Source of the DNA: an uncultured Treponema sp. | Lineage (GTDB): Bacteria; Spirochaetota; Spirochaetia; Treponematales; Treponemataceae | NCBI GenBank assembly: GCA_900319625.1 | Contig: ONPD01000002.1 | Location: 62,001 to 126,000 of the forward strand | DNA: 64,000 bases | Direction of reading: 5' to 3' | Part shown: positions 3,683 to 39,617 of the stretch, one piece after another | How positions within the stretch are numbered: the first letter of the stretch is position 1 | How the letters are laid out: each line of letters opens with the position of its first letter | Notes under the pieces: model-generated | Told to the model about the DNA's origin: nothing | The model's database searches: none | The model's input: the letters and a program-made list of their open reading frames with translations, nothing else | Position numbers and translations under genes: made by a program

Positions 3683-4834
3683 CTATGCCCCGTTCATATA
3701 GTTGTTTAGAAGGTTATTATAATAACTATCCATTCTTAAAATCCTATGATAGCAATTAAATTTTTTCAGTTTTTCTTTTCTCCATGATTTATATTCATAA
3801 TAGATTTTAATTAAATTCATTCCGTCAGAAAACTTCTTTTTCAAAACCCGCTTCTGCCTTTGAAATCCGTCTTTAGCAGGAATTTTCACTATCTTTCCGT
3901 TATCTTCAAAAATGTATTTTGTTTTTAAGAAAGTAAAGCCTTTTTCAAGCGGTCTTATGCAGGTTTTCTTCAAGTTGATATGTATTCCAAGTTTCTGACA
4001 TTTTTCTTTCACTTTTTCAAAAGTTTCAAGAAGCTTTGTTTTTGAACTGTCAATAATATAACTGTCATCATTATATCTGCCAGAATATTTATGACCTTTT
4101 ACCGTTTTGATTAAATGGTCTACTTCATTTGGATAAATCAGTCCGACACTTTGGGATAACTGACTTCCGATTCCCATTGATTTTTCAATAAACCTTTCGC
4201 CTTTAGTACAGGGATTTACACCTTCGTCTTTAAGAAGGTTCATAATTCCATAAGTCATTCTCTGTATTGTTTCTTCATCCCTGTCAGAAACATCTACAAG
4301 AAACATATCTATAAACTTATCGCATAGAGAAAGGACATATTCATCATCCGTCAATCCCCTTAAAATCTTTCTTACTTCGCTGTGCAAAATATTGTCATAA
4401 AACTTTGAAAAATCCATAAGAAGGATATAACCTTTCCAGGAATTACCGTTACTTTTATAGTATTTATTCAGGTGGACTGACAATCTTCTTCTAGTATGCC
4501 CGATACCTTTTCCTTTACGGCTTGCTCCGTTATCATAGCTGATTTTCTTTTCAATAAGCGGATTTAATTCCATATCGCAAAGAGTATGAAGCGTTATTCT
4601 GTCTTTTACAGAAACGGCTTTTACAAGCCTTGTATGTCCTCTTTCGTTGATAATAAATCGGTTTAATCTGTCTGGCTTATAATTCCCGTTTTGATGTTCT
4701 TCTTTTAATTCTATAAATTTTGAAAGCCTTGAACATTCCCAGGTCATTACGCTTTCTTTCCAGTCACTATTTGTTTTCGTCTTATTAAAAGAAGCGTTAA
4801 TTTTATTTAAGTCTGTAAAATCTTCTTTTCCCAT
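3683..4834 (-). CDS. Reverse transcriptase of a diversity-generating retroelement
   Basis: The enzyme copies TR RNA into cDNA with adenine-specific errors for transfer into the tail-protein gene. From the ATG at 4834 it is 383 aa, a usual DGR-RT length, and GCAGGAG lies about 11 bases upstream; ATG at 4882 would add 16 residues. Visible motifs are the metal-binding LMDFSKFYD (motif A), GIGSQLSQ at residues 221-228 (the DGR-type IGxxxSQ, in place of the QGxxxSP of other RTs) and the catalytic YNDD at 254-257. There is no maturase or group II domain. YNDD is a less common YxDD variant. The TR lies 140 bases upstream on the same transcript and the Avd-like gene precedes it. Confidence 0.95.
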   Translation of the reverse strand: MGKEDFTDLNKINASFNKTKTNSDWKESVMTWECSRLSKFIELKEEHQNGNYKPDRLNRFIINERGHTRLVKAVSVKDRITLHTLCDMELNPLIEKKISYDNGASRKGKGIGHTRRRLSVHLNKYYKSNGNSWKGYILLMDFSKFYDNILHSEVRKILRGLTDDEYVLSLCDKFIDMFLVDVSDRDEETIQRMTYGIMNLLKDEGVNPCTKGERFIEKSMGIGSQLSQSVGLIYPNEVDHLIKTVKGHKYSGRYNDDSYIIDSSKTKLLETFEKVKEKCQKLGIHINLKKTCIRPLEKGFTFLKTKYIFEDNGKIVKIPAKDGFQRQKRVLKKKFSDGMNLIKIYYEYKSWRKEKLKKFNCYHRILRMDSYYNNLLNNYMNGA

Positions 4835-4896
4835 AATAAAAAAAACTCCTGCCTTATAGTTGACATCAGCCGTAGCTGGCAACGTACAGAATAACT

Positions 4897-4914
4897 TTAA
4901 CTCTTTCGAGTTAA
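4897..4914 (-). other. GAAA-tetraloop hairpin between TR and RT
   Basis: On the minus-strand RNA a perfect 7-bp stem (TTAACTC/GAGTTAA) closes a GAAA loop, 60 bases after the TR end and before the RT start. A stable hairpin in the spacer could shape the TR RNA for priming or protein binding. That role is inference; the stem itself is plain in the sequence. Confidence 0.6.
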
Positions 4915-4974
4915 GATATGCACTCCTTCCTTTTCCGTTTAATTTCGTTCAAAAACTACTTTATGGATTAGATT

Positions 4975-5066
4975 CGGGGACGACAGCCATTCGAGTTACT
5001 AGCGTCGTTGTTGTTGGCATTGCCGTTGTCGTTGACATTGCAGGCGTTAGACGAACTGTTAATATT
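4975..5066 (-). repeat. DGR template repeat (TR)
   Basis: A non-coding 92-bp copy of the target's 3' end. On the minus (coding-sense) strand it would read largely as AAC/AAT codons (12 Asn codons in about 30). Aligned with VR at a constant offset of 722, all 20 differences are at TR adenines and no other base differs. The 14 bases at the 3' end (4975-4988) match VR exactly and are the likely IMH-type initiation region. The left limit could be a few bases further, since two more T-only differences occur at 4973-4974 before the match breaks. The first bases overlap the stop of the Avd-like gene. Confidence 0.95.
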
Positions 5067-5628
5067 CAGCGCATACCTTTTTATTTTCCTGCCTTTTTCT
5101 AAAATCCCTTGCGTCAGTTTTTCTCATTTTTTTCAAATTAGCTTTTTCTTTTTCAAGCATTTTGCATAACTGTTCGAGTGAATTTAAGTTAAGGTTGAAA
5201 ATATCAGCTATATAATCCAAATCCCTTATTAAGGCTTCATTGCTTGCAATAGCTGCATTTACATAAAGCCTTCTTTGCATTAATTCCCCCTCTGACTGCG
5301 GTATGTTTGAATTTGCCTTTACAACATTTCTGTGCAAATTAATGGCTTCATCAATCATACTGTTTCTTGCTTTTTCGATTATCCACGGGGGAAATTCTTC
5401 AAGAACCTTGCTATCACTCAAAGCAGGGTATTTGTCGCAAAGTTCTTTCAAGATTTCTTTATCTTCATCTGTAAGTTTTGCTACTTCAAAAAGATTCGAG
5501 ACTTTTCTCACTCTACTTCTTATGCCAAAATCACGCAAGCACCATTGTGTAATTATTCGCCTTAATCTGTGTGCATAAGCTACGGGCGAGTATTTATTAT
5601 CGTGCCTGTCTTTTGCTAGCATTGCCAT
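5059..5628 (-). CDS. avd: Avd-like accessory protein of the DGR
   Basis: A 189-aa helical protein placed between target and TR, the standard position of the accessory variability determinant that binds RT and TR RNA. The C-terminal half (about residues 95-175) is predicted helical and includes NSNIPQ, RRLYVNAAIASNEAL and a basic end with MRKTDARDFRKRQ. This resembles the helical-bundle accessory proteins found beside gut-phage DGR RTs. It is longer than classical Avd (about 125 aa): the first 90 residues form an extra region with a basic start (HRLRRIITQWCLRDFGIRSR). ATG at 5628 follows AAGGA. The stop codon falls inside the TR 5' end. Function is assigned mostly from locus position. Confidence 0.75.
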   Translation of the reverse strand: MAMLAKDRHDNKYSPVAYAHRLRRIITQWCLRDFGIRSRVRKVSNLFEVAKLTDEDKEILKELCDKYPALSDSKVLEEFPPWIIEKARNSMIDEAINLHRNVVKANSNIPQSEGELMQRRLYVNAAIASNEALIRDLDYIADIFNLNLNSLEQLCKMLEKEKANLKKMRKTDARDFRKRQENKKVCAEY

Positions 5629-5640
5629 ATTTAGTCCTTA

Positions 5641-5661
5641 CAAGCCCCACAAGGGGGCTTG
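5641..5661 (-). other. Hairpin/cruciform directly downstream of VR
   Basis: A perfect 8-bp inverted repeat (CAAGCCCC/GGGGCTTG) with a 5-base loop, starting one base after the target stop codon. DGRs such as that of BPP-1 have a GC-rich hairpin just past VR that helps target recognition, and this has the same place and size. It has no strong T-run, so a terminator role is less likely. Confidence 0.75.
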
Positions 5662-5662
5662 A

Positions 5663-7747
5663 TTAATTCAATTCTGGCTCACCGCCAAATAGGAAGCGGG
5701 GACGACAGCCAAGCGAGGCACTAGCGCCGAGGTGGTAGGCATGGCCGTTGTCGGCGACAAAGCAGGCGGCAGACGAACTGGTAACAGAAATCAGCCAGAA
5801 ATTATATTCAAGTCCTACTGCTAATTCTGGCATTAACCCAAATAAAGCTAACAATGTGCAGGCTGTTCCTGACTGATAGCCGTTGCCGAAAATAGAACTT
5901 CCATATATTTCTACTTCGGACATTGGAGAAAGGTATCTTAAAGCACTTGCCCAACCCCAAGTTGCATCTCCCTGTGGTTCAAGAGGATTAAACCCGATAA
6001 TTCGTGATGAGCCGAAGAAAGTATTAATTTTACCGAGAACGCTAGGGCCTTCCATTACAGCTTTAATGTTAGAAGAAGGATAACCGCCTGAAGTTGTATT
6101 AGTTGTATTCCATTGAGCCGAAGCCATAGAATAATCCGGCACGATAACAGCATGGTGTTTATCAACTTTCGTCGGATGACCCCTTTTCATATAAGCATCC
6201 AAATCGGCTATTCGGCAAACTCTGTTTGAATCATTTGTATCAATGAAATAGTCGCCCGTCCATACATCGCTGAATGAGCCGTCTGCAATCATATTAAAAA
6301 CTTCTTTGATTGTATAACCTAATCCGGGATATGTCGGTGCACCTGGAAAAGGCGTCGTCGGATAAAGCGTGTTCGGGTCACCATTCAAACAGCGGCCGCG
6401 GAAAATGTTACGGTGCATAACCGCAGAATTTAAATACCCGCTGATCACACTGAGCTTATTACAAAACTCATTAAGTGCAGTCAAAGCAAGCTCAACACTT
6501 GTCTTGTTCACACCGTCAATACTAAGCGGAGTTAAAAGCGTTTTCGGCTGCAGGTCCGGCAACGCCGCAAGTGCCTGTTGTACCTGCGTATCAGTAAATC
6601 CTGCAGCCTCAGCACGCTTAGCAGTATTATTCCATTTAAGGACTTTACCATCTGCCAGGTCCGCTTCCTCCGCACGTGTCAAAAGCGGCTGATTCTCTGA
6701 CGCGTCAATAGCGTTATCAGTTACGCTGATATAGTAAAGCAAAGTGTATTTTGTAAGCGCTTCAAGAGCCGCAATCAAGCCTGCATCACTTACGGCCGTA
6801 TCAAAGACAAAAGCACCGTCCGTTACAGAAAGAATTTCCTTCCAGTCCTCGCCGTCATAATGGAAGTAAGCGCTTTCCGATTCCAGCCAAACAACATTTT
6901 CAAGCGTAATCGAGTTTGCATTTGTAATGATGTGCTGCGGATAATTTTCTGCGGCGTTATGTGTCAATCCTGAATAATGTACGCCGTTGAATACACAAAG
7001 ATTCTGATAGGTAGTTGCAGTGTTGGAAGCGCTGTCCGCAACGCGCCAGGTGCCGTCTTTATCCACTGCAATAGTTGCCATTTTGCCGTTACCGTCATAG
7101 TTTACAACCGCAAGGCCGGCCGCACTTCCCGGTGCAATCCCGTGCGAAGCCGCAAGGCGTGCAATGTAATAATCCTGCGCCGTTGCCGTTTCCTGCTGGT
7201 CAATAGTAGTAACGCCTGCTACGTTCAAGTTTCCTTCAATGGAAACATCACCCTTGAAAGTCGAAGATTTGTCTACTTCTAAATCGTCTTTTACAGTTGT
7301 TTTCCCTGTAACTTCCAAAGTCCCGCCAACAGACTGATTTCCCGTTACGCTCTGATTACCGCCGATTGCGGCCGCCCCGGAAGTCTCAAGACTGGCACCT
7401 TCAAGCTTACCAGTAGCAGTTACACCACCGGTAACCGATGTATCACCGCCAAAACTTGCAGCCCCGGAAGTTTCCAGTGTGCCGGTAATAGAAGTATTCC
7501 CGTTTACGTCCAGTCCGTTTTCTGTGTCGATACTGTCTGTCTTAATTCCACCGTTAAATGTTTTCTTTCCGGAAAAAGCCTGAGCGCCGGTAGTAACATA
7601 TCCGCGTGCGCTTGCCGAAGCGTCCGGCGCACTTTTATGAAAGTTTTCAACGCTGATTCTGTGTGTTGTGCCGTCAGGGCCAGTAATCATAAGTTCATCG
7701 TTCTGATTTGCCGAAGTCTGTTCGGTCCAGGTTTTAGGTGTCTGCAT
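5663..7747 (-). CDS. DGR-diversified tail fibre / receptor-binding protein
   Basis: This 694-aa phage tail protein is the mutagenesis target. The N-terminal part (about 1-60) is probably the attachment region. Residues 60-190 are Gly/Thr/Ser-rich short repeats (GNTSITG, GGTLEVTG) typical of trimeric beta-helical fibres. A mixed middle follows. The C-terminal domain (about 450-694) ends in SVTSSSAACFVADNG...GCRPRFLFG, the C-type-lectin-like ending (RPRF-[LI]) of DGR targets. VR codes for residues 654-684. AAAGGAG precedes the ATG at 7747. By analogy with BPP-1 Mtd, variation here would change host receptor choice. The protein is nearly twice the length of Mtd. Confidence 0.93.
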   Translation of the reverse strand: MQTPKTWTEQTSANQNDELMITGPDGTTHRISVENFHKSAPDASASARGYVTTGAQAFSGKKTFNGGIKTDSIDTENGLDVNGNTSITGTLETSGAASFGGDTSVTGGVTATGKLEGASLETSGAAAIGGNQSVTGNQSVGGTLEVTGKTTVKDDLEVDKSSTFKGDVSIEGNLNVAGVTTIDQQETATAQDYYIARLAASHGIAPGSAAGLAVVNYDGNGKMATIAVDKDGTWRVADSASNTATTYQNLCVFNGVHYSGLTHNAAENYPQHIITNANSITLENVVWLESESAYFHYDGEDWKEILSVTDGAFVFDTAVSDAGLIAALEALTKYTLLYYISVTDNAIDASENQPLLTRAEEADLADGKVLKWNNTAKRAEAAGFTDTQVQQALAALPDLQPKTLLTPLSIDGVNKTSVELALTALNEFCNKLSVISGYLNSAVMHRNIFRGRCLNGDPNTLYPTTPFPGAPTYPGLGYTIKEVFNMIADGSFSDVWTGDYFIDTNDSNRVCRIADLDAYMKRGHPTKVDKHHAVIVPDYSMASAQWNTTNTTSGGYPSSNIKAVMEGPSVLGKINTFFGSSRIIGFNPLEPQGDATWGWASALRYLSPMSEVEIYGSSIFGNGYQSGTACTLLALFGLMPELAVGLEYNFWLISVTSSSAACFVADNGHAYHLGASASLGCRPRFLFGGEPELN
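5697..5788 (-). repeat. DGR variable repeat (VR)
   Basis: The 92-bp 3' part of the target gene, a partial copy of TR. Thirteen of about 30 codons encode a different residue from the TR reading, nearly all Asn in TR (to Ser, Thr, Ala, Phe, His, Tyr, Leu), plus one Asp to Gly and one Ile to Val. One Asn codon is unchanged. Changes sit in the first two positions of AAY codons, so stop codons cannot arise there. The fixed end GCRPR corresponds to the shared 14-bp GC-rich segment at 5697-5710. Confidence 0.95.
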
Positions 7748-8905: not shown

Positions 8906-9394
8906 ATGAAAAAACTATTTTTCCTTTTATTTCCATTATTTTTATTTTCAAGTTGTGAATATATTGCGGATAAGATTTGGACTAAAGAAGATATTACCTA
9001 CATTAATAAATCGTCTTATGAAGTTATTTTTACGGATGAGGATAAAGCGCAATTTACATTACCTGCCGGAAGTAGCTGCACTGCAAAAGGGTACGGAAGC
9101 CCTAACGTCACTATAATTAATAACGTTCCTGTAAATTATTCCAAAGATTCGTATTCCGGCACTTTTACCGATATGACGCCTACAACTATTATTATAAAAA
9201 ATACAAAAAACGAAGCTGTTATATTCCGTTGTGGAAATAGTAAATATAACTATAAAGAAACGTTGCCGGCTTCTTCTGAAAAAACTTTGAAAGTATTTTC
9301 CTATGATGGTATTTCTGTCCTCTCTGAAAAACAAACATTCGCAATTTCTTTTACTACAAACACTGTAAATGAAATAATTTATATTTATATTTAA
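8906..9394 (+). CDS. Cargo lipoprotein, function unknown
   Basis: A 162-aa protein with a type II signal: MKKLFFLLFPLFLFSSC, with Cys at residue 17 following LFSS. The body is Thr/Ser/Asn-rich and likely beta-structured. ATG at 8906 is preferred over 8885 because it begins the signal peptide exactly. It has its own promoter and runs against the phage operons; its stop overlaps the convergent tail-fibre stop. A lipoprotein expressed from a prophage could alter the cell surface or block infection by related phages. This is inference from position and topology. Confidence 0.75.
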   Translation: MKKLFFLLFPLFLFSSCEYIADKIWTKEDITYINKSSYEVIFTDEDKAQFTLPAGSSCTAKGYGSPNVTIINNVPVNYSKDSYSGTFTDMTPTTIIIKNTKNEAVIFRCGNSKYNYKETLPASSEKTLKVFSYDGISVLSEKQTFAISFTTNTVNEIIYIYI

Positions 9395-11481
9395 ACTATT
9401 CTTAAATACCCATTTGTATCGCGCCATATTGTCCCTGAAGCAGCGGGCTGTCCTGTAGGAATATTAAGAAATTTTAGAGTTTTTGAACCTACAGGAATTA
9501 TAGATTTTGCCGTTACCGTATAAGGGTAGTCTACTGTTGTAATATCATCTACAAGCTTACTTTCGTCAACGTTTTCAACTCTTCTTGAGTTAAAACTAAC
9601 GGAGCCTAACGTATTCCCTTCTTGATCCTTAAAAGTAACGGTTACTATATAGTATAATACATATACAATAAATCTCTCAAAATCTATTCTTTTTTGATAA
9701 CTTACAGTAACACTATGATAATTGTATCCGGCGGTTTGTCCTTGTACTGCATATCCAAAAAAAGCATTAACAGCGGCAGCATTTTTAAACTCAAAAGATT
9801 CTCCTGCATTATGCGATATTACAGTCGTACTGCCCGGTTGTAAATTTGAGCAATATATAGTGCCATTTTCAATATTTCCCCTTATATATGAATTTTCACC
9901 AAGGGTAACGTTCCCCTTAATTTCTACGGTTTGATCAATAACAGTATTTCCACCAATAGCGCAATTTCCGCCTATATTTGTAGTCCCGATAATATTACAA
10001 TTTCCACCTATTTGTGTATTTCCATTTGCCCATATATTACCGTCTGCGTCAATCTTCAATCCGCTTTTTATCAGCTCTGTATTAATAAACTCTGTTTTCT
10101 TAGAAGTAATACTTCCGTTTGTATCAAGAATAATCGTTCTTACTGACAAACTGTTAAGTGCTGCCTGGTTGCCAAAGAATGAATTGGCAAAAAGTGTTGC
10201 AAAATATCCATCTGTAATATCATGCAAAGACAAAACATCTTCCAGGCAGGACATATAGTATTCCTGATTCTGCGGTTGCGTTGCGTCCAAAAACTGCCAG
10301 GCAGGAGTTGCGCCCTCAACGTATTTATAAATCTTTGAATACTGCCAGTTTACGCCGCCTGCTGTGTGGTTTGTTCCTGAATAAACAAAAAACTGGCCGT
10401 CCCTTGCGTTCTGCGGTACGGTAGCAAAAATTCCAAGATAGCGCTCTCCAACCGGGTTAAACTTTCCGCTTTCATCCACGACATTAACAATTTCATCCTG
10501 TACTACTCCCGGGAAGTGACCTGTAAGATTAGAATAATCGGCCATACATGTAAAATAACGCCAGTCGTTTTCTGCCACTTCGTGCCAGGCCGCATTTTGA
10601 TAGTAGTAAACTTTGTTAGCCGTAAAGTTATGATTACCAGTTCCGGGGGTTCCAAAAGTAAAAAGCGGTTCTCCGTTGGTGTAAAGCTGTTCACCGTTTG
10701 TATAAAGTTCCTCACAATCCAGGCTGGTTCCGTTCGTAAAAAGCCATTGTCCGTTTACATAAAGCACTTCGCCATTTGTATAAAGCGGCTCTGTAATGCT
10801 GAAATTGTCTGACGCTAAGAAAAACTGTCCTTCCTGAATGTAAAGTAATTCATCGGCAATATCGTCAAAAACCCCTAGATACTCTCCACCCTGAATAGTC
10901 CATTTGCCGCCCGTGTACTGGTAAAAGCGGCCGTGAAAAACCCTTACTTCGTTATCTTCTCCCACTTCGTCAAAAGATACCAAGACCTTCAGAAAGTAAT
11001 CATCATTCAGGTTAGAAGTAATTCTAGTCTGCGTCATTTTTTCAGAATAGTAATAGCTTGAAAATTGGCTGTTAAACTCATCGCGGTTCTGAAGAATAGT
11101 TGATGCTTCCATATCATCAAAAAGAGAAAGGGTAACAAAGAGATATTTTCTAAGCTCTTCGTAAGTCTGCACATAGTCATTCCACCAGTCAGTACCTGCA
11201 AGTCCCCTTTCGCCTGCCTGATAGAGGAGGGCAGCATAGCTTTGTGTAATTGCTTCCCATTCCTTTTTCAAAATCTTTTTTTCAACAGGCGTAATCTTTC
11301 CGTCATCAGAAAGCTTTGACCAGTAGTCAGTAACTTTCGATTCTGTGATGCTTGTTTCCTGCTGGATCATGTCTACGGAGCGTTTTATCTCCCTGATGTT
11401 TTTGGACTTAACTTCGCCTAAAACTTCAATACTTCCAAAAACAGCATGTTCGCCCGCGTGATTTGCCTGTCGTAATCTCAT
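9391..11481 (-). CDS. Tail fibre / tail-associated protein with two repeat regions
   Basis: A 696-aa protein. Residues 1-120 are helical. Residues about 230-280 hold tandem LYTNGE-type units (LYTNGE, LYVNGQ, LFTNGT, then LYTNGE twice). Residues about 474-534 form left-handed-helix-like turns (GNTQIGGNCNIIG, GGNCAIGGNT, LGENSYIRGN). The C-terminal end ASGTIWRDTNGYLRIV is a common close of phage tail fibres. AAGGAA precedes the ATG at 11481. It lies between the giant ejection protein and the cargo genes, so it is probably the fibre that links the tail to the diversified receptor-binding protein. Confidence 0.8.
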   Translation of the reverse strand: MRLRQANHAGEHAVFGSIEVLGEVKSKNIREIKRSVDMIQQETSITESKVTDYWSKLSDDGKITPVEKKILKKEWEAITQSYAALLYQAGERGLAGTDWWNDYVQTYEELRKYLFVTLSLFDDMEASTILQNRDEFNSQFSSYYYSEKMTQTRITSNLNDDYFLKVLVSFDEVGEDNEVRVFHGRFYQYTGGKWTIQGGEYLGVFDDIADELLYIQEGQFFLASDNFSITEPLYTNGEVLYVNGQWLFTNGTSLDCEELYTNGEQLYTNGEPLFTFGTPGTGNHNFTANKVYYYQNAAWHEVAENDWRYFTCMADYSNLTGHFPGVVQDEIVNVVDESGKFNPVGERYLGIFATVPQNARDGQFFVYSGTNHTAGGVNWQYSKIYKYVEGATPAWQFLDATQPQNQEYYMSCLEDVLSLHDITDGYFATLFANSFFGNQAALNSLSVRTIILDTNGSITSKKTEFINTELIKSGLKIDADGNIWANGNTQIGGNCNIIGTTNIGGNCAIGGNTVIDQTVEIKGNVTLGENSYIRGNIENGTIYCSNLQPGSTTVISHNAGESFEFKNAAAVNAFFGYAVQGQTAGYNYHSVTVSYQKRIDFERFIVYVLYYIVTVTFKDQEGNTLGSVSFNSRRVENVDESKLVDDITTVDYPYTVTAKSIIPVGSKTLKFLNIPTGQPAASGTIWRDTNGYLRIV

Positions 11482-21030: not shown

Positions 21031-21078
21031 AAAGTAAAAACTCCTTATATCAGATTTTAGATTGCGCAATGCTGATTT

Positions 21079-24210: not shown

Positions 24211-26511
24211 TTACGCCGTCTGCGCGTCAACACTTAAAATATTAACTGCCCGCGGTTCGTCCGCTTCCAGCTCAAAAGTAACGTCCCTGTCTGTCACTCC
24301 AGGGTAGGTGATCTTTCCGATTCCTGAATACGGCAAGCTTGTAATTGTCGTAAACTTCTCGTCTGCTACGCCCGTGCATTTCATAACCGGCATATAACTG
24401 TCTAAAAAGCGCACAAGAAGCGCCGTAATGCGCCGCTGCTCCTTCTGATTTATAACCGGCATACTTTTAATATAACTTCTGAACTTATATCCGATATAAA
24501 CAGTGTCGTTTTCCCCGATAAATCCCGAAGGAATATTGTCATAATCGCAAGTCTTATTCTGCGTCTGATTAAACAAAATCGCGCCTGTCGTGTAGCCGTC
24601 TGCAGGATCCTGCGCCTGAGAGTTATATTCCTTAAAGCTATCAAGGTAAACTTGCTTTCCTAAATCCAGCTTTTCAAGAAAATACCTTCCGCCGTCTTCC
24701 ACCACAAAGAAAACTAAATCATACTCATCATCGCCGCGTGTAACTGCGCAGTTCTTGATTTTTCCGTGGGTAGAAATTCTTCCCCATGCCATAATCCCGT
24801 TTGTTTTATCGTAAAGCATTTCCGCTGCCGTTCCGTCGGCCCTTACAATAATCAAACGTGAATAAGGATTTGTCATGTAGTCAAAATCAACGGCCTTACT
24901 CTCGCGCAAAATATGATCTGCAAGAAGCGCAATATTATTAGTCTGAAAAGCGTTTACAGCATAGTCATTATTGTAGTAAAACTCCCGGATTCCTTTCTTA
25001 CCCTGAGCAAAATAAACTGTCGCAGTTTCTACTGCCTGCCCCTGTATTTCATCACTTCCATATCGGCCCTGCATCGAAGCGGTTACGTTCAGGGCTGAAA
25101 TATCAGCCGCAACGCTCCATATACTTGATTCTGTTCCGATTGCCAAAAACTTGTTTGAGCTTAAAAACATAATGCTGTCGTTCTGGTCACTTGCAAGTTC
25201 AAAGAATAATCCGCAATCGGCTGTAGTTATGTTGTTTGAATTTACTACAATGTCGTAATCTTCTGCACTGGCTGTTTCTGAACTTCTCCATAGCTGCAGG
25301 GTTAAAACCTGATTTTCAAGCGTTGTCTTTATAACTTCCTTCTGTTCTTCAACTTCCTGCCCCTTATCATCAGTTTTCTTTTCCGTAATGATTTCAGTTT
25401 CATCAAAAACAATCTTTGCAGTATTGATGGTAAGGGTATTGCTAGTTGCCGCAAGCACTTTAGTTCCCACCGGAATTTTGTTTCCCGTAACGTAATAGTC
25501 CGTAATCGGATAGGAAAGCCCGCCTGTAGTAAAATCTGCCGTTACGTTCCTTAAAACAGTCTGTCCCGTTGCTTCATTTACGTCTTCCTTCCTTATATCG
25601 CAGGTAAAAACATGTAAATCAGCGTCTTTCACGGCACGGCTTACGGTTACATACTTTTTATAGGTTGAAAACTCGTTGTAACGTTCTTTTGTTTCATCCG
25701 GTGCCGCACTTGCCCATACCTTCTGAGGTTCGTTTCTTGTTGAAGCAAAAAACAGACGGTTATTGAAGAAAGCAACACATCCAGGGTATTTATTTTGAGC
25801 ATCAAAAAGCGCCGTATCAACATTCGGATCAGTTCCGTACAAAGCCCATCCGTCGTTGTATTCGTATAGTTTTCCGTTAAGAACAGCGTAAAACTTTGTA
25901 ATTCCGAGCGGAAATTCCTTTGTTGTAAGCTGGCTTCCGTTTGCAACCGGCATGTAATAAGTAAACTTTCCGTGTCCGTCGCTTGTAGATTCCTTAAGCG
26001 GTAGTGTATCAACCGGTATCATAACATAGTCAAAATCATCATCAAGCTGTACATCCGGGTAAAAGTCAAACTCCATTTTAGAAGCCGTAAAATACTGCGG
26101 ACTTCCGGCATGCCATTGAATGGCATAAGGCGGGAAGTCGCGGTGTGCAAAAATCATTGTGTCATAGTTCTGTGCGTAATGCAGTTCTTTAATGACTGCC
26201 AGGCTATTCCAGACAGTTTCAATAGTCTGCAGGATAACCAGGCTTCCGTCGCTCTGCTGTTTCCATACAGCTAAACTCTGTGCTTTCAGTTCAAAAATAA
26301 AAACTGTGTCCTTATTCACAATAAACGGGATTATGCGGTTATTGCCTGAAAGCTCTGCAACTCTTTCAGTCCCGCTTCTTCTTTTAATTCCGCCAGTTGG
26401 AATAATTTCAAAGTTTTCAATTCTTGCAGCCCCCTGATAATACTGTCTTATATCAGTGCGGCCGTTAAGGTTTTGAGAAAGTTCTCCTGACGCAAAGTTA
26501 GTTATAAGCAT
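24211..26511 (-). CDS. Tail nozzle protein (T7 gp12-like, tail tubular protein B)
   Basis: A 766-aa mostly beta protein. The opening is typical of short-tail nozzle or stabilisation proteins: NFASGELSQNLNGRTDIRQY, then NFEIIPTGGIKRRSGT with the conserved RRxGT. In the virion it forms the distal tail tube through which DNA leaves. It is preceded directly by the adaptor gene and followed by the ejection proteins. GGGGGAAG precedes the ATG at 26511. Confidence 0.88.
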   Translation of the reverse strand: MLITNFASGELSQNLNGRTDIRQYYQGAARIENFEIIPTGGIKRRSGTERVAELSGNNRIIPFIVNKDTVFIFELKAQSLAVWKQQSDGSLVILQTIETVWNSLAVIKELHYAQNYDTMIFAHRDFPPYAIQWHAGSPQYFTASKMEFDFYPDVQLDDDFDYVMIPVDTLPLKESTSDGHGKFTYYMPVANGSQLTTKEFPLGITKFYAVLNGKLYEYNDGWALYGTDPNVDTALFDAQNKYPGCVAFFNNRLFFASTRNEPQKVWASAAPDETKERYNEFSTYKKYVTVSRAVKDADLHVFTCDIRKEDVNEATGQTVLRNVTADFTTGGLSYPITDYYVTGNKIPVGTKVLAATSNTLTINTAKIVFDETEIITEKKTDDKGQEVEEQKEVIKTTLENQVLTLQLWRSSETASAEDYDIVVNSNNITTADCGLFFELASDQNDSIMFLSSNKFLAIGTESSIWSVAADISALNVTASMQGRYGSDEIQGQAVETATVYFAQGKKGIREFYYNNDYAVNAFQTNNIALLADHILRESKAVDFDYMTNPYSRLIIVRADGTAAEMLYDKTNGIMAWGRISTHGKIKNCAVTRGDDEYDLVFFVVEDGGRYFLEKLDLGKQVYLDSFKEYNSQAQDPADGYTTGAILFNQTQNKTCDYDNIPSGFIGENDTVYIGYKFRSYIKSMPVINQKEQRRITALLVRFLDSYMPVMKCTGVADEKFTTITSLPYSGIGKITYPGVTDRDVTFELEADEPRAVNILSVDAQTA

Positions 26512-27249
26512 TTATACTTCCCCCAGTCCCAGCTCTTCAATCCACCAGCGGTTACCCTTAGTCTTATTTCGCGCCATTTCCGCGCTCTTTTTCTGCGCAT
26601 TGTTTGCAATAATCTGCGCTTCATTAAACAGCATCTGATATTTCTGTGTGTCGCCGGTGAGTTTCAAAACAACACTTGCCGCTAAGTCACATTCAATGTA
26701 TGCACTTAACTGCGGGTCAAACTTCGGCTCATCATAAAAATTATAGTCCTCTTCAATAAGCGTGTAATAGGTCTGTTCGCTGTCCCAGCTTTCAGCCTTA
26801 ACGTAAGCATCTTCATCCAGGTAATAGTATTTGCTCAGGTCAGCTTCAACCGGCTCTGAAACTTTTTCGTATTTTCTCTTTCCGGAAAAGTAATTTGTGA
26901 TGTAGATAAGTACAGCGTCTGCGGTGTCCGTATAAATAAATCCGCCTTCTACAATGTAGCTGTCATTACCTACAAGTCCTACAACCTTTGCACAATCTGC
27001 CGGAAGTGCATACATAAAATCATAAGTTGTAAGATTTTCTTCTGTATCAATGTCGATTACTTCAAGTCGCGCTCTTTTCTTCTGGCTGGTCCAGTCGTAA
27101 GAAGAAAGCGCCTGTAAAATAGTTGCGTGGTAAAAGTCTTTTACAACCCTTACGCGGTTGCTTGTTCCTTCTTCCCATTCAGATTCAGTAATAGGCTCTT
27201 CGCCGGCCTTTGCAAAAGCTCTTGCAACTATGTCTTTATTAATATTCAT
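26512..27249 (-). CDS. Adaptor / tail tubular protein A (T7 gp11-like)
   Basis: A 245-aa protein whose start MNINKDIVARAFAKAGEEPI and later segment ALSSYDWTSQKKRARL match the helical adaptor family that joins portal and nozzle. A longer reading from 27312 adds 21 residues of unrelated sequence. The ATG at 27249 begins the conserved helix and is preferred. Its stop abuts the nozzle gene start. Confidence 0.85.
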   Translation of the reverse strand: MNINKDIVARAFAKAGEEPITESEWEEGTSNRVRVVKDFYHATILQALSSYDWTSQKKRARLEVIDIDTEENLTTYDFMYALPADCAKVVGLVGNDSYIVEGGFIYTDTADAVLIYITNYFSGKRKYEKVSEPVEADLSKYYYLDEDAYVKAESWDSEQTYYTLIEEDYNFYDEPKFDPQLSAYIECDLAASVVLKLTGDTQKYQMLFNEAQIIANNAQKKSAEMARNKTKGNRWWIEELGLGEV

Positions 27250-27315
27250 AACATGCCAACCTAAAATAAAATATGGGCACGGCACGTTTCCGCACCGCGC
27301 CCCGTAAAACAAAAG

Positions 27316-27498
27316 CTAATCCAGCTTTACAAAGTGGCCATTGTCACCAACCGGCGGTTTTACCGATTCCGGAAGCTCTACCACGCTGTCAGCGTGATAA
27401 AGCCTGTCATTCCAGTAACATGTAGTTTTTACCCTGTATTTAACAGTTTTTTCTGTTTTGCCGGCGTCTTTTGCTGTTGCGTTCTGATTATCAACCAT
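27316..27498 (-). CDS. Small conserved phage protein downstream of the cement gene
   Basis: A 60-aa protein. After a charged N-terminus comes VKYRVKTTCYWNDRLYHADSVVELPESVKPP, a small beta domain seen in short phage proteins near capsid genes. GGGAG precedes the ATG. It may be a head decoration or completion protein; function unknown. Confidence 0.65.
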   Translation of the reverse strand: MVDNQNATAKDAGKTEKTVKYRVKTTCYWNDRLYHADSVVELPESVKPPVGDNGHFVKLD

Positions 27499-27501
27499 AC
27501 A

Positions 27502-27882
27502 TTACACTCCCAGATAAACATCCATACAGGCAGAAATTTTACCTGCAGTATGAGTGCCAACGCCTGTAACGGCTGCACGCATGTACTTGTAATTCCAGTT
27601 CTGTGGAATATGAACATCAAAGTTTGCATCCTTTGTAAGTTTTGCTTCCAGGATAACTGGAGACTCAGCAACAGTAACATAAGTTGAGTTATCGTTACTT
27701 CCCTGTACCAGAAGCTGTACGGAAGTTCCGCCAGCAGCGGCAGTTTCAACAATAAAGTTTACTGCTCTGTAAGAAGGGTCTGCCTTGTCAATTTTAAGAA
27801 CATTACCAAGTGCGTCAGTGCCGGCACTTCCAAGAGTAACCGAGCCAAAATTAAGGGCAGCATCAAATCTTGATTTCTGCAT
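27502..27882 (-). CDS. Capsid cement protein (Bbp16-like)
   Basis: A 126-aa beta-rich protein with FIVETAAAGGTSVQLLVQGS in the middle and YKYMRAAVTGVGTHTAGKIS near the end. The pattern matches the BPP-1 Bbp16 family of jelly-roll capsid cement proteins that lock capsomers together. It follows the major capsid gene, the expected place. GGAG precedes the ATG. Together with the Bbp19-like gene it ties this prophage to BPP-1-type phages. Confidence 0.7.
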   Translation of the reverse strand: MQKSRFDAALNFGSVTLGSAGTDALGNVLKIDKADPSYRAVNFIVETAAAGGTSVQLLVQGSNDNSTYVTVAESPVILEAKLTKDANFDVHIPQNWNYKYMRAAVTGVGTHTAGKISACMDVYLGV

Positions 27883-27931
27883 ATTTGCATCTCCTTTAAT
27901 CAGTTAAGCCCCGCATACGCAGGGCATATTT

Positions 27932-28921
27932 TTAGACTACCTGTGATTCAGTCATCAGGATAGAAGGACACTTACGGATTCTTCCATCTCCAATTTTCAA
28001 AACGTCATTACCCCAAGGGTCAGAAGAAGGGTAAATAACGTTAGACTTCTGGTTAGCTGTCCAGTTAAGAATACCCTTGATAACCGGGTTACATGCGATT
28101 GTGATTGTTCCGCCGCCAACAGCAAGATTGTCAATATTTTTAGAAATATATTCAGCAATCTTTTCACCGATGTTGTTAGCAGTCTTATCAATGTTTGCAA
28201 GACGGATAACAGATTTTGAGTGACGAACAGCAAGACCGCGTGCAATGCGGTAATGAGTTTCGTAGCCCATATAACTTTTTCCGTTTCCATCTTCAATTTT
28301 ATGGCGTCCAAGATCTTCAACTTCAACACCAAAAGTCTTGTGTCCTTTAGGGTAGATAAGATGAGCCTTATCGCGCGCCCATTTGATAAGGTAAATTGAT
28401 GTAAGGTTGTTGCCAGTACCGCCCATGTCAATAACAGTTTCGCCGTTAATCTTGTTAAGACGAGTTGCAAAACCATTAGTATAATGAGGATCTGCATTGT
28501 GATTACCGTAAAGGATATCGTCAGTCATATCCTGGCTGAGACCTTCAATAAAAGCTGCCTGCTCGCTCATAAGCAGCTCTGCTCTGTGGTTAGCATTGTC
28601 AAAGCCAGCTTCATCAATAAGCTGTGCATCAACCTGAGAGAAGATTTCAATGTTAGAAATTACATCTTCAATAGTCTTTGTCTGGCTAGAAGCTTTTCCA
28701 ACACCTTCATTGTAGCCTCTGTGCTCACCGTGAGGGAGTGCAGTTCTTACAAGTGTTGAATGAACTGTGCCTTTATTTGCCTCAATCAAAGGTGCATCCA
28801 AAAGCAGCTCGTCAAGTCTTGCAAGCTCTTCGATAATCATACGGCAATCAGGATTACTGCCGTTAAGACGTTTTGCCACTTCAAGAGAAGTAAGCTGGTC
28901 TGTTAAACTCAAAACAGCCAT
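27932..28921 (-). CDS. Major capsid protein (HK97-fold, BPP-1-like)
   Basis: A 329-aa protein in the capsid slot between scaffold and cement genes. The early part includes DAPLIEANKG and YNEGVGKASSQTKT, and the rest is mixed alpha/beta (YPKGHKTFGVEVEDLG, then SVIRLANIDKT). This composition is typical of podovirus major capsid proteins of BPP-1 type. AAGGAG lies just upstream of ATG 28921. There is no N-terminal propeptide sign, consistent with a separate scaffold protein. Confidence 0.85.
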   Translation of the reverse strand: MAVLSLTDQLTSLEVAKRLNGSNPDCRMIIEELARLDELLLDAPLIEANKGTVHSTLVRTALPHGEHRGYNEGVGKASSQTKTIEDVISNIEIFSQVDAQLIDEAGFDNANHRAELLMSEQAAFIEGLSQDMTDDILYGNHNADPHYTNGFATRLNKINGETVIDMGGTGNNLTSIYLIKWARDKAHLIYPKGHKTFGVEVEDLGRHKIEDGNGKSYMGYETHYRIARGLAVRHSKSVIRLANIDKTANNIGEKIAEYISKNIDNLAVGGGTITIACNPVIKGILNWTANQKSNVIYPSSDPWGNDVLKIGDGRIRKCPSILMTESQVV

Positions 28922-28933
28922 ATAGAATTCTCC

Positions 28934-29770
28934 TTATTTTTTATTTTTGTAGAATGAGAAGGCACCGCCTTCTGAAATAGATTTATAATCGTCAGTTTTA
29001 CCGCCGGTATTACCTGGCGATCCCGCCTCAGCATTCATTTCACCAAGATTAATGAACATCTTTACGACTTCATAATCTCCCAAAAGTCCGGCCTTATCGA
29101 GTTTTGCCGCTAAGCTCTGTCCGCCGTAAGCCGCAACGCCTCTCTTAAGCATTTCTATCTTTACCGGATAGTCCTTGCCGTACTCCTTCTGGAGTGCTGA
29201 CTGTGTTTCGTGCACCTGTGCCTCAAAAGCGGCTTTCTGCTGCTCTGCGGCGTTTTTCATCGCACTTGTTCCCACTTCCTTAAGGCTCTGGTAAAGTGCC
29301 TTAGCCTGTGCGTCAGTGAGGTTATTCTTAAAGGCCATTTCACGGAAAAGTTTTGCGTCGTCCCCTTCAATAGAATACTTGTCGGCACTTTCAGGCTTAC
29401 CAAGATTTTTATAAAAGGTTTCGATTTCCTCTGCGCTTGCGTTTTCCCCAGGTTTCACAATGCTATTCCCCAGTTTGCCCTCAAGCTCCAGGTAAGATTT
29501 AGCAAGGTCGCCGACTTTCCCAAATTTCTTGAGTTTTTCAGCTGCTCCCGCATCCTTTGTAATGTCGCCAATCTGCTCCATCCAAGCCGGATTCGGTACA
29601 TCCCCGCCGCCTTTATTTCCGTCTGCATTAGGCTTATTCCCTGCGCCGTTATCCCCACCGTTTCCGGCAGGTTTTGGATCAGGTTCAGCTCCCTGCATTC
29701 CGCCCATAATGTTCTTAATGTCATTAGCTCCGGCATCTGGTGCCGGTGTCTGCTGTGTTTCTCCGTCCAT
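28934..29770 (-). CDS. Capsid scaffolding protein
   Basis: A 278-aa acidic protein. The first 65 residues are low-complexity and Pro/Gly/Asn/Asp-rich; the remainder is helical with Lys/Ala/Glu/Gln-rich coiled-coil segments. Placement between portal-side small genes and the major capsid gene, with this composition, is the standard scaffold pattern. It would guide procapsid assembly and then leave. GGAGAT precedes ATG 29770. Confidence 0.8.
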   Translation of the reverse strand: MDGETQQTPAPDAGANDIKNIMGGMQGAEPDPKPAGNGGDNGAGNKPNADGNKGGGDVPNPAWMEQIGDITKDAGAAEKLKKFGKVGDLAKSYLELEGKLGNSIVKPGENASAEEIETFYKNLGKPESADKYSIEGDDAKLFREMAFKNNLTDAQAKALYQSLKEVGTSAMKNAAEQQKAAFEAQVHETQSALQKEYGKDYPVKIEMLKRGVAAYGGQSLAAKLDKAGLLGDYEVVKMFINLGEMNAEAGSPGNTGGKTDDYKSISEGGAFSFYKNKK

Positions 29771-29780
29771 GTTTTATCTC

Positions 29781-30095
29781 CTATTTATTACTCAGTTTTT
29801 CTTCATAAAGTATACGAGCTGCAAGAATTTCTTCGTATACTTTCATAGCATTAAGCTGGATAATAAGATAATGTTTCTGAACATCATCCAGAGCTTCAAA
29901 CTTTTCTGATTCAATAAAATCACCAAGTTTATTGATTTTTTCATCCAGTTCTTTAAGCTCAATTCTCATGCGACCAAGATAATCTGGCTTAAAACATTTC
30001 TTTTCGCCTGTAGTATCAACCATTCCGTTTTCTTCTGAGCCGCAGCAAACGCCGTCGGTTACTTTGTTTTCACATTCAGTACAGTCTTTTTCCAT
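29781..30095 (-). CDS. Small phage protein with Cys-rich start and coiled coil
   Basis: A 104-aa protein. Five cysteines lie in the first 40 residues (KDCTECENK, VCCGSE, KKCF), then a coiled coil beginning YLGRMRIELKELDEKINKL. ATG 30095 follows AAGGAG and is preferred over an earlier start. The coiled-coil part resembles a common phage protein family of unknown role. The clustered cysteines could bind a metal. Confidence 0.65.
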   Translation of the reverse strand: MEKDCTECENKVTDGVCCGSEENGMVDTTGEKKCFKPDYLGRMRIELKELDEKINKLGDFIESEKFEALDDVQKHYLIIQLNAMKVYEEILAARILYEEKLSNK

Positions 30096-30097
30096 GT

Positions 30098-30409
30098 TTA
30101 ATTCTCCTTTCTGCAATCGAAAATTGCATCACTTATCTGCATATCATTATTGCATCCAAGTCTTTTAAAAATCATAAACTTTGCATAATTATTTAATGCA
30201 ATTTGTCTCTCATTTTCGATTCTGTGATTGAAGAATTCCAAGTCATACAAAAGCTGATGCAAAACAATTTTTCCATCGGGCGTACCAAAAACACGGCGAA
30301 AACACTCAGTCATTCTTTTGTCACGCTCTATGATTATTCTTTTTTTCTCTTCATCATCTTCATCAAGTGTACTGAATATTTTTTCATATTCCATTTCTAA
30401 ATTAGCCAT
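30098..30409 (-). CDS. Bbp19-like phage protein
   Basis: A 103-aa helical protein with the block FRRVFGTPDGKIVLHQLL, then an FFNHRIENERQIALNNYAKF segment. It matches the Bbp19-like family named after Bordetella phage BPP-1. Its start overlaps the portal gene's last codons (30402-30409), so it is translated together with the portal. Its role in the virion is unknown; the position next to the portal suggests a head or portal accessory. Confidence 0.75.
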   Translation of the reverse strand: MANLEMEYEKIFSTLDEDDEEKKRIIIERDKRMTECFRRVFGTPDGKIVLHQLLYDLEFFNHRIENERQIALNNYAKFMIFKRLGCNNDMQISDAIFDCRKEN

Positions 30410-32063
30410 TCATTCCCCCTGTAAGCTGTTTGTTAATCTGATCCATCATAGACCCCTGTTGTGCAGCTTCACCCATCTTGTTTGCGTTCTGCATGAGTGT
30501 CTGAGCCATTGCCATCTGCTGCTGCTGTGCGGCCGCCTGCTGTTCCGCCTTAATGCGTTCCTCACGGATTTTCTTAACGTCATCATCTTCGCGGATAACA
30601 TTCTGAGGCATTTTCATACCTTCCATAGTGCTCTTCATAAGCTGGTCGCCGTCAATAAAATCACCAGCATTAGGAAACATCTGCATGATAGGACCGACTG
30701 CGCTAAGAGCCTGGAGAGTTCCGCCCATCTGGTGATATTTCTGCTGATTCTGAGCAAGAGGCCCCGTAAAGTCAATTTTGATTATCGCCTTACTTTGCAT
30801 CAAAGCCATAGGCGGCGGCGGTAAAAGCTGCGCCCTCATAAGCAGGCTGAAACTTCTTGAAATAACGTTGGAAAGGAATTCATTAAGATTAACTATAAAA
30901 GTCGAAAGTGTAGCCGCCTTTTCTCCCTGCAACTCCATAACCTCAGTAGCAGTCATATTGCCCTGACGTTCCTGCAGCGCAAGGAAGTAATCAACATAAA
31001 ACCAGTCCTTAACGTCCTTATCGTAGTTTGCAAGCTCCTGTAAAGTGATAGGATAATTTTCTCCGGTTCTCAGTGCTTCAAGAGTGCTGTTTTGAGTAGG
31101 CTTATAAGTAATTCCCCTTGGACTTAAGTCAATATCGTGCATGTCTTCGCTTGCAAGCATAGGCGGTTCCGCAGAAGTCTGTGCAATCTGCAGGCTTGTT
31201 TTCTTAATTATGTTCAAGGCTTTTATTTCATTAAGTGCATCCTGAGAAGGACTTGAGCCGTAAGCAAAGCCTGAATATTTCTCCCACGTAAAAACCGCAA
31301 AGGGGAATTCATTGTAGCCCGATTCTGATAATATCCATCTGTTTGTAAGGTCAATGTAAACACAGGCGTAAGGCATGTTTTTTGAGTTCTTGAATTCAGG
31401 CTTGTACTCAGTACGCGGATAAACGCACATCAGAATTTCGCAGTCATCATTCCAGTGTGTAGTTTCCTTTACCTTTTCCCTCATGTTTTCGTGTACGTTT
31501 TCTTCACCGAAAAAGTCAACGATGTTTTTAAGCTTGTCAGAATACCAGCGGAAACAGGTGTCTATCTCTCCGTAAGGGTTTACATCAAAATAAAGCTGAT
31601 TAGGCGGATAGTGAATGAAACGAAGCCTGCTGTTTTTAATATCCTCGTCAATAAAAAGTGCACCGTGTCCTATGCAGGTACAGTCACTTACGGCCGGATT
31701 TGTTTCCCGGTAAAAGTTAGTACGGTTGAACATGGCAAGCATGATTTTCTCGCAGTCCTCAAGCCAGTCTTTAACGCCGTATTCATTTAAAAGAGAGTTA
31801 TCTTCAAGTCCCAGCTTAAACCATACAAGGGAAGGGCTTACGGCATAACCTACAATTCCTGCATCCAAAGTCTTCTTGTAACCGTAAGCCTTTGAAGTAA
31901 AACGCTTAGGACGTGTCGGCACGTCGCCAACCTTTTTCCATTCATAAACAATATTGTTAGAAAACTTCTGGGCTTCCGTCCAGTCATCTTCAAACTTAGC
32001 GCGGTTATCCTTAAGCTGCTGCCATCTGGTTTCAAGTTCCTTTATTAATTCTTGCTTTTCCAT
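30402..32063 (-). CDS. Portal protein (head-tail connector, T7 gp8-like)
   Basis: This 553-aa protein forms the twelve-fold ring through which DNA enters and leaves. The N-terminal helical part (TRWQQLKDNRAKFEDDW) and the FTSKAYGYKKTLDAGIVGY segment fit the podovirus connector family, as do YGSSPSQDALNEIKALNIIK and ERQGNMTATEVMELQGEKAA further on. A Gln/Ala/Met-rich C-terminal tail (about 505-553) is typical too. The ATG at 32063 has no clear ribosome site and lies very close to a candidate -10 box, so the leader may be very short. A terminator and promoter pair upstream mark the start of the late structural operon. Confidence 0.9.
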   Translation of the reverse strand: MEKQELIKELETRWQQLKDNRAKFEDDWTEAQKFSNNIVYEWKKVGDVPTRPKRFTSKAYGYKKTLDAGIVGYAVSPSLVWFKLGLEDNSLLNEYGVKDWLEDCEKIMLAMFNRTNFYRETNPAVSDCTCIGHGALFIDEDIKNSRLRFIHYPPNQLYFDVNPYGEIDTCFRWYSDKLKNIVDFFGEENVHENMREKVKETTHWNDDCEILMCVYPRTEYKPEFKNSKNMPYACVYIDLTNRWILSESGYNEFPFAVFTWEKYSGFAYGSSPSQDALNEIKALNIIKKTSLQIAQTSAEPPMLASEDMHDIDLSPRGITYKPTQNSTLEALRTGENYPITLQELANYDKDVKDWFYVDYFLALQERQGNMTATEVMELQGEKAATLSTFIVNLNEFLSNVISRSFSLLMRAQLLPPPPMALMQSKAIIKIDFTGPLAQNQQKYHQMGGTLQALSAVGPIMQMFPNAGDFIDGDQLMKSTMEGMKMPQNVIREDDDVKKIREERIKAEQQAAAQQQQMAMAQTLMQNANKMGEAAQQGSMMDQINKQLTGGMNG

Positions 32064-32071
32064 ACTACAAT

Positions 32072-32105
32072 TTTATATTGCAGTAAATTAGCAAGTCATA
32101 AACAA
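32072..32105 (-). promoter_or_regulatory. Candidate promoter of the portal operon
   Basis: The minus strand carries TTGTTTATGAC (32095-32105), the element shared with 8160 and 21079. A sigma-70-like pair follows: ATGACT (32094-32099) and TATAAA (32072-32077), 16 bases apart. It lies directly after a terminator, the usual layout for a new transcript. Confidence 0.5.
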
Positions 32106-32107
32106 AT

Positions 32108-32149
32108 AAAAAAAAATCCGCCGGCAAGTATTGCAGCAACTTACCGGCG
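32108..32149 (-). terminator. Rho-independent terminator upstream of the portal gene
   Basis: On the minus strand an 11-bp stem beginning CGCCGG (arms 32119-32129 and 32139-32149, one G-U pair), a 9-base loop and a run of nine Ts (32108-32116). It ends the packaging/methylase transcript before the portal operon. Confidence 0.85.
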
Positions 32150-32161
32150 AAAAATGGGTTA

Positions 32162-32263
32162 TTATTTAATAATCTCCGCAATAGGAGAGGGCCTTTTTCC
32201 TGCGCCCCAACAGTTCCTTATATCGGGATAAACTCCCTTAAAATACTTTACCCATACGGGCAA
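32162..32263 (-). CDS. Possible 33-aa ORF (weak)
   Basis: An open frame from a TTG codon whose peptide (PVWVKYFKGVYPD, then NCWGAGKRPSP) looks more protein-like than random. There is no ribosome site or ATG, and the frame stays open upstream into the end of the neighbouring gene. It could be a remnant of a longer gene. Confidence 0.2.
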   Translation of the reverse strand: MPVWVKYFKGVYPDIRNCWGAGKRPSPIAEIIK

Positions 32264-32270
32264 GCTACTT

Positions 32271-32540
32271 TTATTCTTTAATTTCTTTTGTTATTAATAC
32301 TCTGTCTGTATCTAAAGTGAGTACAAAAGGTATTCCTTTAATTGTGCCTCTATTAACTCTTTCTGTTGGTGTATCAACTTCAAATTGAATTTCATTACCG
32401 ATTATGCTTTCTTTCAATAAATCGCGATATGAATTAATGCTTAATTCAATTTGAATTCCATAGCCTTCTTTTTTAAGTCCTAATCTTTCTAATTCCTTTG
32501 CAGCTTTTAAGCTTTGTTCATATAATTTATTATAATTCAT
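32271..32540 (-). CDS. Small uncharacterised phage protein
   Basis: An 89-aa protein with an N-terminal helix (YEQSLKAAKELERLG) and a beta-type C-terminal half. ATG 32540 with GAGG six bases upstream is preferred over the TTG at 32579. Codons are richer in A and T than in neighbouring phage genes. No family was recognised. Confidence 0.55.
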   Translation of the reverse strand: MNYNKLYEQSLKAAKELERLGLKKEGYGIQIELSINSYRDLLKESIIGNEIQFEVDTPTERVNRGTIKGIPFVLTLDTDRVLITKEIKE

Positions 32541-32631
32541 ATTATACCTCGCTCTTTTATCGGCTATTTTTTCTTGCAATCTGATTACAGATTTCTTCCG
32601 CTTTTATCCTTTTTACCAATTAATAATATTG

Positions 32632-32727
32632 TCATTTCTTAATCTCCTTCTTAAGCACGTGCCAGTATATGGCCGTTGCGCCCCATAGTCCTACCGTCAA
32701 AACAATAGATAAAATCAATTCTGCCAT
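32632..32727 (-). CDS. 31-aa single-span membrane peptide
   Basis: A short ORF that starts one base after the MazG-like gene's stop. It encodes a hydrophobic span (LILSIVLTVGLWGATAIYW) with a Lys-rich end. The very tight spacing suggests real translational coupling. Function unknown. Confidence 0.45.
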   Translation of the reverse strand: MAELILSIVLTVGLWGATAIYWHVLKKEIKK

Positions 32728-32728
32728 A

Positions 32729-33073: not shown

Positions 33074-33109
33074 TTTTTTTCTTCTCCCTAATTAAATGGA
33101 TCCCAAGTT

Positions 33110-39614: not shown

Positions 39615-39617
39615 TTC

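Follow-up and report, generated by a model that had tools for sequence, protein, structure and literature searches.

The mechanism of diversity-generating retroelements (DGRs) has been worked out mostly on Bordetella phage BPP-1. In the mtd/avd/TR/brt cassette of this phage, the target gene with its variable repeat (VR) is followed by a hairpin, an accessory gene, the template repeat (TR), a spacer and the reverse transcriptase (RT) gene, and change is adenine-specific. According to PMC12875486, the BPP-1 spacer adopts a fold, brings in RT-Avd and uses one of its internal adenines to prime cDNA; PMC3240598 gives the consensus of the BPP-1-type hairpin as a GC-rich stem of 7-10 bp with a 4-nt GRNA loop. 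For the DGR of Treponema denticola (TvpA), PMC4891356 describes up to seven target genes with FGE-sulfatase-type targets, and an HRDC accessory gene between TR and RT. Phage DGRs and viral DGR clades are already known from PMC8144416, in the main text of which "spirochaet" does not occur. Here we describe a DGR in a 64,000-nt stretch of DNA (the window; C10:62001-126000) from a genome that is likely Treponema-related (2.56 Mb in 19 contigs, 83.75% complete) and in which one RT reaches the Pfam cut-off.

As judged from its sequence, the locus is a complete DGR within a predicted prophage, with template and target copies that differ solely at template adenines. All of its elements lie on the minus strand, in the order target, VR, hairpin, accessory gene, TR, spacer and RT gene. 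A first-pass annotation had proposed this order and the completeness of the element. Both were confirmed, and the TR/VR pair, the adjoining DGR-type RT and the position of the VR in the 3' end of the target identify the locus as a DGR. The locus is of a known kind, a phage DGR, and a distinct variant of it. Labels beginning with L, G and P denote the loci, genomes and protein records used in the comparisons.

Template and target repeats differ at adenines only

The TR (4975..5066) and the VR (5697..5788) align without gaps over 92 positions of the coding strand, at a constant offset of 722. They differ at 20 positions, every one a TR adenine (20 of 29 adenines changed), and at none of the 63 other positions (hypergeometric p = 1.2e-13). 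The same counts had been obtained by eye in the first-pass annotation and proved exact in the computed alignment. The adenines were changed to C nine times, to T six times and to G five times. An independent repeat search ranked the pair first among its direct-repeat families (81% over 88 nt), and when the TR was searched against its own genome, the single other strong match was the VR, accompanied by three 18-nt matches at E 0.5.

The TR overlaps with its 5' end the final codons of the accessory gene. The VR corresponds to codons 654-683 of the 694-codon target gene plus two bases. Each of the 17 TR codons that contain adenine has C or T in its third position, which means that no adenine change can create a stop codon. 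These codons permit about 10^17 protein variants.

TR/VR-like pairs were present in 13 of the 14 larger loci scanned, our own included. In two loci, one TR was accompanied by two VRs about 5-6 kb apart, each with its own 5-nt-loop hairpin (L034, VRs at 3906-4000 and 10150-10244; L035, VRs at 9588-9682 and 14384-14474). In the distant phages L048 (3135-3267) and L049 (4533-4663), TR cores were 91-97% identical to the window TR over 35-55 nt, and the remaining DNA did not align with the window. L045 (G170:C17) carries a DGR of another type, the TR of which matches VRs at two places.

Natural variation in related targets

The target gene (5663..7747) encodes a protein of 694 residues that is predicted to be a tail fibre from its similarity to P0126-P0129. 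Its C-terminal half is 55-57% identical to these proteins and the N-termini are unrelated, so that the variable domain appears to be a module attached to varying fibre stalks. Three of the four relatives contain the tail collar domain PF07484, which upholds, at the level of a predicted tail-type protein, the earlier assignment of the target to the tail. A search of the target against PDB sequences gave no match.

When the four relatives were scored with the TR of the window, 14 of the 17 columns of TR-adenine codons varied, as against 1 of the 13 other VR columns and 28 of 213 columns outside the VR. The comparison of adenine codons with all other columns (29 of 226 varying) gives a Fisher p of 1.9e-9. 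This pattern in the sequences indicates that such targets diversify in nature; present activity of the window copy is not implied.

The reverse transcriptase belongs to a separate clade

The RT gene (3683..4834) encodes 383 residues when read from an ATG; alternatively, translation may begin at an in-frame TTG at 4882. The protein matches PF00078 (RVT_1, E 8.5e-15) and phrog_1423 (E 2.7e-53), and among PDB sequences it finds, at E 0.001, only the DGR RT of BPP-1 (8ub7_A, E 1.7e-8). Identity to the BPP-1 enzyme, Brt, is 23.5%. It carries the motifs IGSQLSQ and YNDD, with the two catalytic aspartates and the SQ motif kept, and has R and I at the positions of Brt R74 and I181. In Brt, these two residues take part in adenine infidelity. 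The reading frames of RT, accessory protein and target are all open.

At a threshold of E 1e-10, relatives of the window RT were found in 17 of 200 genus genomes and in 18 of 274 family genomes (own genome included). The BPP-1 RT as query matched 51 of the 274 family genomes, partly at the same loci. One genome of the same GTDB family, G237, has an RT at 2303252-2304115, which are the T. denticola coordinates given in PMC4891356.

A tree was calculated from 50 RT rows chosen from among the search matches; L057 (short) and P0097 (same as L012) were left out. The window RT falls within a group of 21 rows (support 100/100) that contains treponeme, Roseburia-phage and Acutalibacter-phage RTs and two RTs from viral contigs. 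The other 29 rows include Brt as well as the T. denticola RT, which gives no support to the expectation of the first-pass annotation that the locus would link these two systems. Forcing the window group together with Brt cost 98 log units and was rejected (p-AU 8e-10, approximately unbiased test). The BPP-1 branch is long, and its exact place is less sure than the 21/29 split. In a tree of 62 rows, to which 12 phage records had been added, the 21 rows and four phages formed a 25-row group (100/99), nested in a 28-row group (100/97).

The T. denticola DGR resembles that of the window in its adenine-biased TR/VR pair, and the two host genomes belong to one GTDB family. It differs in that it is chromosomal and has an RT from across the split in the tree, and the window has neither the RT grouping nor the HRDC accessory of the T. 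denticola type.

An RNA family between template repeat and RT gene

The spacer between TR and RT (4826..4973) matches, in the expected place, the full Rfam model RT-2 (RF03077, positions 1-222) as a short form, with 29.7 bits (E 3.2e-4 in 4.7 kb) against a gathering score of 40. The spacers of the window and of L010 are without the 3' third of RT-2. Above the cut-off, RT-2 was found directly before the RT in 14 other loci (L010, L014, L015, L030, L049, L053, L048, L085, G400, G554, L109, L110, L111 and L114), and a TR was identified immediately before it in 12 of these. The RT-2 matches in G170 and G259 are L015 and L053 and were not counted again; L112, with a spacer that is cut off, was left out. 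L099 (G400) contains both RT-2 and an RT, but a TR/VR pair was not found there even when the scan was loosened; L086 and L111 likewise yielded no pair. A weak RT-2 match in L098 (G382; 25.2 bits) was taken as chance, with no RT nearby.

Among 15 testable spacers in the 25-row group, 12 match RT-2 (window included) and three do not. In the 12 further phage records, RT-2 was present in four of four inside this group and in none of seven testable ones outside it. At the gathering cut-off, RT-2 was not detected around 20 further treponeme RTs and six more (L075-L080), all of which had been found via similarity to the BPP-1 RT. The TR-RT gap of BPP-1 matches the family Phage_DGR (RF03022, 104.7 bits), which did not match in the window at E 1. 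Folding of 11 spacers with RNAalifold gave a covariation term of only -0.17.

By analogy with the BPP-1 spacer, we infer that RT-2 may recruit RT and accessory protein and prime cDNA. RT motifs have reportedly been described in one paper. We found no link between RT-2 and DGRs in print, the sole mention of RF03077 being a table row in the Rfam 15 paper (PMC11701678). Neither a treponeme-phage DGR nor RT-2 as a DGR RNA appeared in the titles and abstract openings searched, with subscription papers outside reach. RT-2 as the spacer RNA of a DGR is put forward as a lead that is possibly new.

A separate family of accessory proteins

The open reading frame (ORF) between VR and TR (5059..5628) encodes 189 residues. 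It had been described as Avd-like; an accessory ORF is indeed present in this place, but it has no detectable sequence similarity to Avd. The protein matched no family of Pfam, PHROGs or NCBIfam at E 0.001 and gave no HRDC match. The bAvd model (PF22296), which matches the Avd proteins of BPP-1 and L108, did not match even at E 1.

An ORF was found between VR and TR in all 12 subclade loci, and the products align as one family. In hhalign, the window set scored 99.3% against eight other accessory proteins and 0.5% against BPP-1 Avd. A profile of the 12 sequences found all five accessory ORFs of further phages of the 28-row group (18-62 bits) and did not find BPP-1 Avd, L108 Avd (itself bAvd, PF22296) or the L105 ORF. 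With a profile of 15 accessory proteins, the best PDB sequence match had E 0.13; none was convincing, and Avd was not among them. A weak AlphaFold 2 (AF2) model of the window protein is all-helical, with an S23-family bundle, 2gsc, and BPP-1 Avd as the best structural neighbours. Remote homology to Avd is plausible, and an Avd-like fold, the four-helix bundle of Avd and S23 proteins, is possible. In P0123, a relative of 219 residues, the reading frame continues into the apparent TR.

Candidate signals on the recipient side

A hairpin with an 8-bp stem and a 5-nt loop, CAAGCCCC[CTTGT]GGGGCTTG (5641..5661), is located 35 nt beyond the VR, after the stop codon of the target and before the start of the accessory gene. 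Its stem was matched in 2 of 200 shuffles, and the best hairpin after the TR has 4 bp only. Loops of 3-8 nt were allowed in the scan. The hairpin is not followed by a T run, and its reading as a terminator was rejected.

The stem length of 8 bp is within the BPP-1-type consensus, but the loop is CTTGT instead of a GRNA tetraloop; the same scan returned GAAA for BPP-1. The best post-VR hairpin has a 5-nt loop for 13 of 14 subclade VRs, and the exception, L049, also has a 5-nt one. CTTGT is common to the window, L033, L039 and L100. The stems of L037, L038 and L100 were equalled in 12-21 of 200 shuffles, which weakens this reading of the hairpins. In the sister phages L109, L110 and L114, the loop is of 4 nt (GTCA, GGAA and GAAA, two of them GRNA), which rules out the 5-nt loop as a marker of the whole RT-2 lineage; it therefore belongs to the branch of the window.

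Just 3' of the 92 aligned positions there are two further adenine differences (..CGAATC in the TR, ..CGCTTC in the VR). The AATC on the TR side (4971..4974) and the CTTC on the VR side (5693..5696) are candidate counterparts of the IMH* and IMH (initiation of mutagenic homing) elements, respectively. Because relatives show the same A/C pair, these differences look like a fixed discriminator and not like mutagenesis. A 3' A in the TR is opposite a C in the VR in 11 of 12 subclade loci, with L049 as the exception (GCTTCC in both repeats), and in five of five further loci. The pair is absent from L104, L105 and L107. That the C is fixed, at a place which mutagenesis would otherwise randomise, suggests an end of transfer directly before it.

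Among named systems, Roseburia phage Shimadzu (LR596903, L085) shares the RT clade, the accessory family, the adenine-type TR/VR pair, the 5-nt loop and the A/C pair at the 3' end with the window. It has RT-2 in the spacer (144.9 bits), its target adjoins tail genes, and its accessory protein is annotated as 'Avd'. Shimadzu differs from the window by a contractile-type body (baseplate J), a full-length instead of a short RT-2, and YMDD instead of YNDD.

Phage context

The cassette lies between tail and lysis genes of a podovirus-like prophage, with an endolysin gene at 936 and genes for tail proteins, major head protein, T7-type portal (PF12236) and terminase large subunit at 24211..35187 on the minus strand (phrog_376, phrog_394, phrog_212, phrog_332 and phrog_979). 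Host genes resume with phosphofructokinase at 40993. A provirus of 40.4 kb in IMG/VR agrees with the window at all of the 10,834 bases that were compared (100% identity). The candidate right attachment site (40833..40850) is an 18-bp sequence that recurs in direct orientation at C10:59524, to the left of the window. In the comparison of the two flanks searched, it was the only common word of at least 14 bases, and the two copies bracket about 43 kb. No integrase was identified for the prophage. The proposal of a prophage in a Treponema-like genome thus agrees with the IMG/VR provirus and the head and tail genes, with the host graded as likely.

The gene order of the phage body is similar, though distantly related, to that of BPP-1. 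Among 29 prophage proteins, seven (RT included) matched one of 24 BPP-1 proteins at E below 0.01, in the same order, with the terminase only partly represented in the comparison. Identities were 23-33%, except for one stretch of 63% over 127 residues. The best matches of the portal were in a Rhodobacteraceae phage and Pelagibacter phages (30-32%), as against 22.7% for the BPP-1 portal. Relatives of the DGR occur on other bodies, with tape-measure tail (L033), baseplate wedge (L037), another terminase type (L035) or baseplate J (Shimadzu). Exchange of the cassette between phage bodies is the likeliest reading, and the slot in common with BPP-1 may merely reflect that DGRs sit beside tail-fibre genes.

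Proposed mechanism and alternatives

We consider it very probable that the locus is a complete DGR in a predicted prophage, likely rewriting the end of a predicted tail-fibre gene, and that its lineage is distinct from those of BPP-1 and T. denticola. By analogy with BPP-1, an RNA would extend from the last part of the accessory gene across the TR into the RT-2-type spacer; RT and accessory protein would be recruited, and cDNA primed, by this spacer. The RT likely copies the TR RNA with random bases opposite adenines, and the cDNA then likely replaces the VR in the 3' end of the target gene. The hairpin and the C-for-A at the VR 3' end would mark the VR, and not the TR, as recipient, and the TR would therefore stay a clean master copy. 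The outcome would be tail tips with new binding surfaces.

Several observations weigh against this reading. A second isolate with a different VR was not found: a search of viral contigs for VR variants gave only an identical record (L007, with the same VR and probably of the same strain) and two distant phages, and a TR-derived pattern matched only our own genome among 196 genus genomes. The window spacer stays below the RT-2 cut-off, and the clade mates L011, L012 and L086 have no RT-2 in the spacer. The test for natural variation scored the relatives with the TR of the window, and the AF2 model of the target, from a 7-row alignment, is too weak to judge a C-type lectin fold of the variable domain (pLDDT, the predicted local distance difference test, 35). 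Part of this evidence would also fit a former DGR, now inactive, with the TR/VR pair as a record of past homing: the VR is identical in the only other record of the phage, the short spacer is under the cut-off, and YNDD replaces YMDD. Even so, such decay appears unlikely with all three reading frames open, both catalytic aspartates and the SQ motif kept, and not a single drifted base among the 63 non-adenine positions.

The earlier suggestion of a BPP-1-type DGR could be upheld if the element had diverged together with its BPP-1-like phage body, in keeping with the common gene order and with the identities of RT (23.5% to Brt) and portal (22.7%). We find this decidedly improbable, as the RT clade (AU test p 8e-10), the spacer RNA family, the accessory family, the profile of which misses Avd, and the hairpin loop all differ from BPP-1, relatives of the DGR ride on other phage bodies, and portals of marine podophages score above the BPP-1 portal. 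DGR-type RTs are also frequent in the family, where a few of the 51 genomes matching Brt (of 274) have RT-2-clade loci, and a chromosomal DGR merely beside phage genes could diversify a bacterial surface protein as in T. denticola. The location of the cassette between tail and lysis genes, inside the IMG/VR provirus and between candidate attachment repeats, and the tail collar domains of the target relatives leave very little room for this explanation.

For the distinct lineage favoured above, the sequences point to markers of its own: RT-2 between TR and RT, an own accessory family, and A-for-C at the TR 3' end. We lean towards the view that a separate DGR lineage uses RT-2 as its RNA for priming and assembly, co-evolving with an accessory family of its own and passing between short- and long-tailed phage bodies of treponemes and Firmicutes, and that in this prophage the lineage came independently to occupy the slot beside the tail-fibre genes that is filled by the unrelated BPP-1 DGR in a similar body. 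The same job appears to be done here by a second, coherent group of components (RT clade, spacer RNA, accessory family, 3' discriminator and branch-specific loop), and the essential features of mutagenic homing therefore become testable. The GRNA tetraloop and a recognisable Avd sequence seem to be non-essential. The comparison also proposes a role for RT-2, an Rfam family otherwise without an assigned one, and points to movement of DGR cassettes from one phage body to another. For spirochaetes, the locus adds phage-borne DGRs to the chromosomal ones.

Additional features

Next to the target, a fibre-like protein of 696 residues (9391..11481, minus strand) has phrog_5070 in common with it. The adjacent region 11491-21069 encodes a polyvalent protein of 3192 residues that carries LPD23 and PBECR1 nuclease-like domains and weakly matches ART-PolyVal; it is 63% identical to BPP-1 bbp10 over 127 residues. 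In another comparison locus, G177:C8:109084-110023 (L030, L032), RT matches are found in two different open frames together with TR, VR and RT-2 RNA, and this cassette is possibly decayed. Left of the window, beside the candidate left attachment site, an ORF of 426 residues (L046:3652-4932) has no Pfam hit and looks like a DDE transposase. At the right end of the prophage, past the IMG/VR boundary, PcfJ- and PcfK-like genes are located at 38358-40142.

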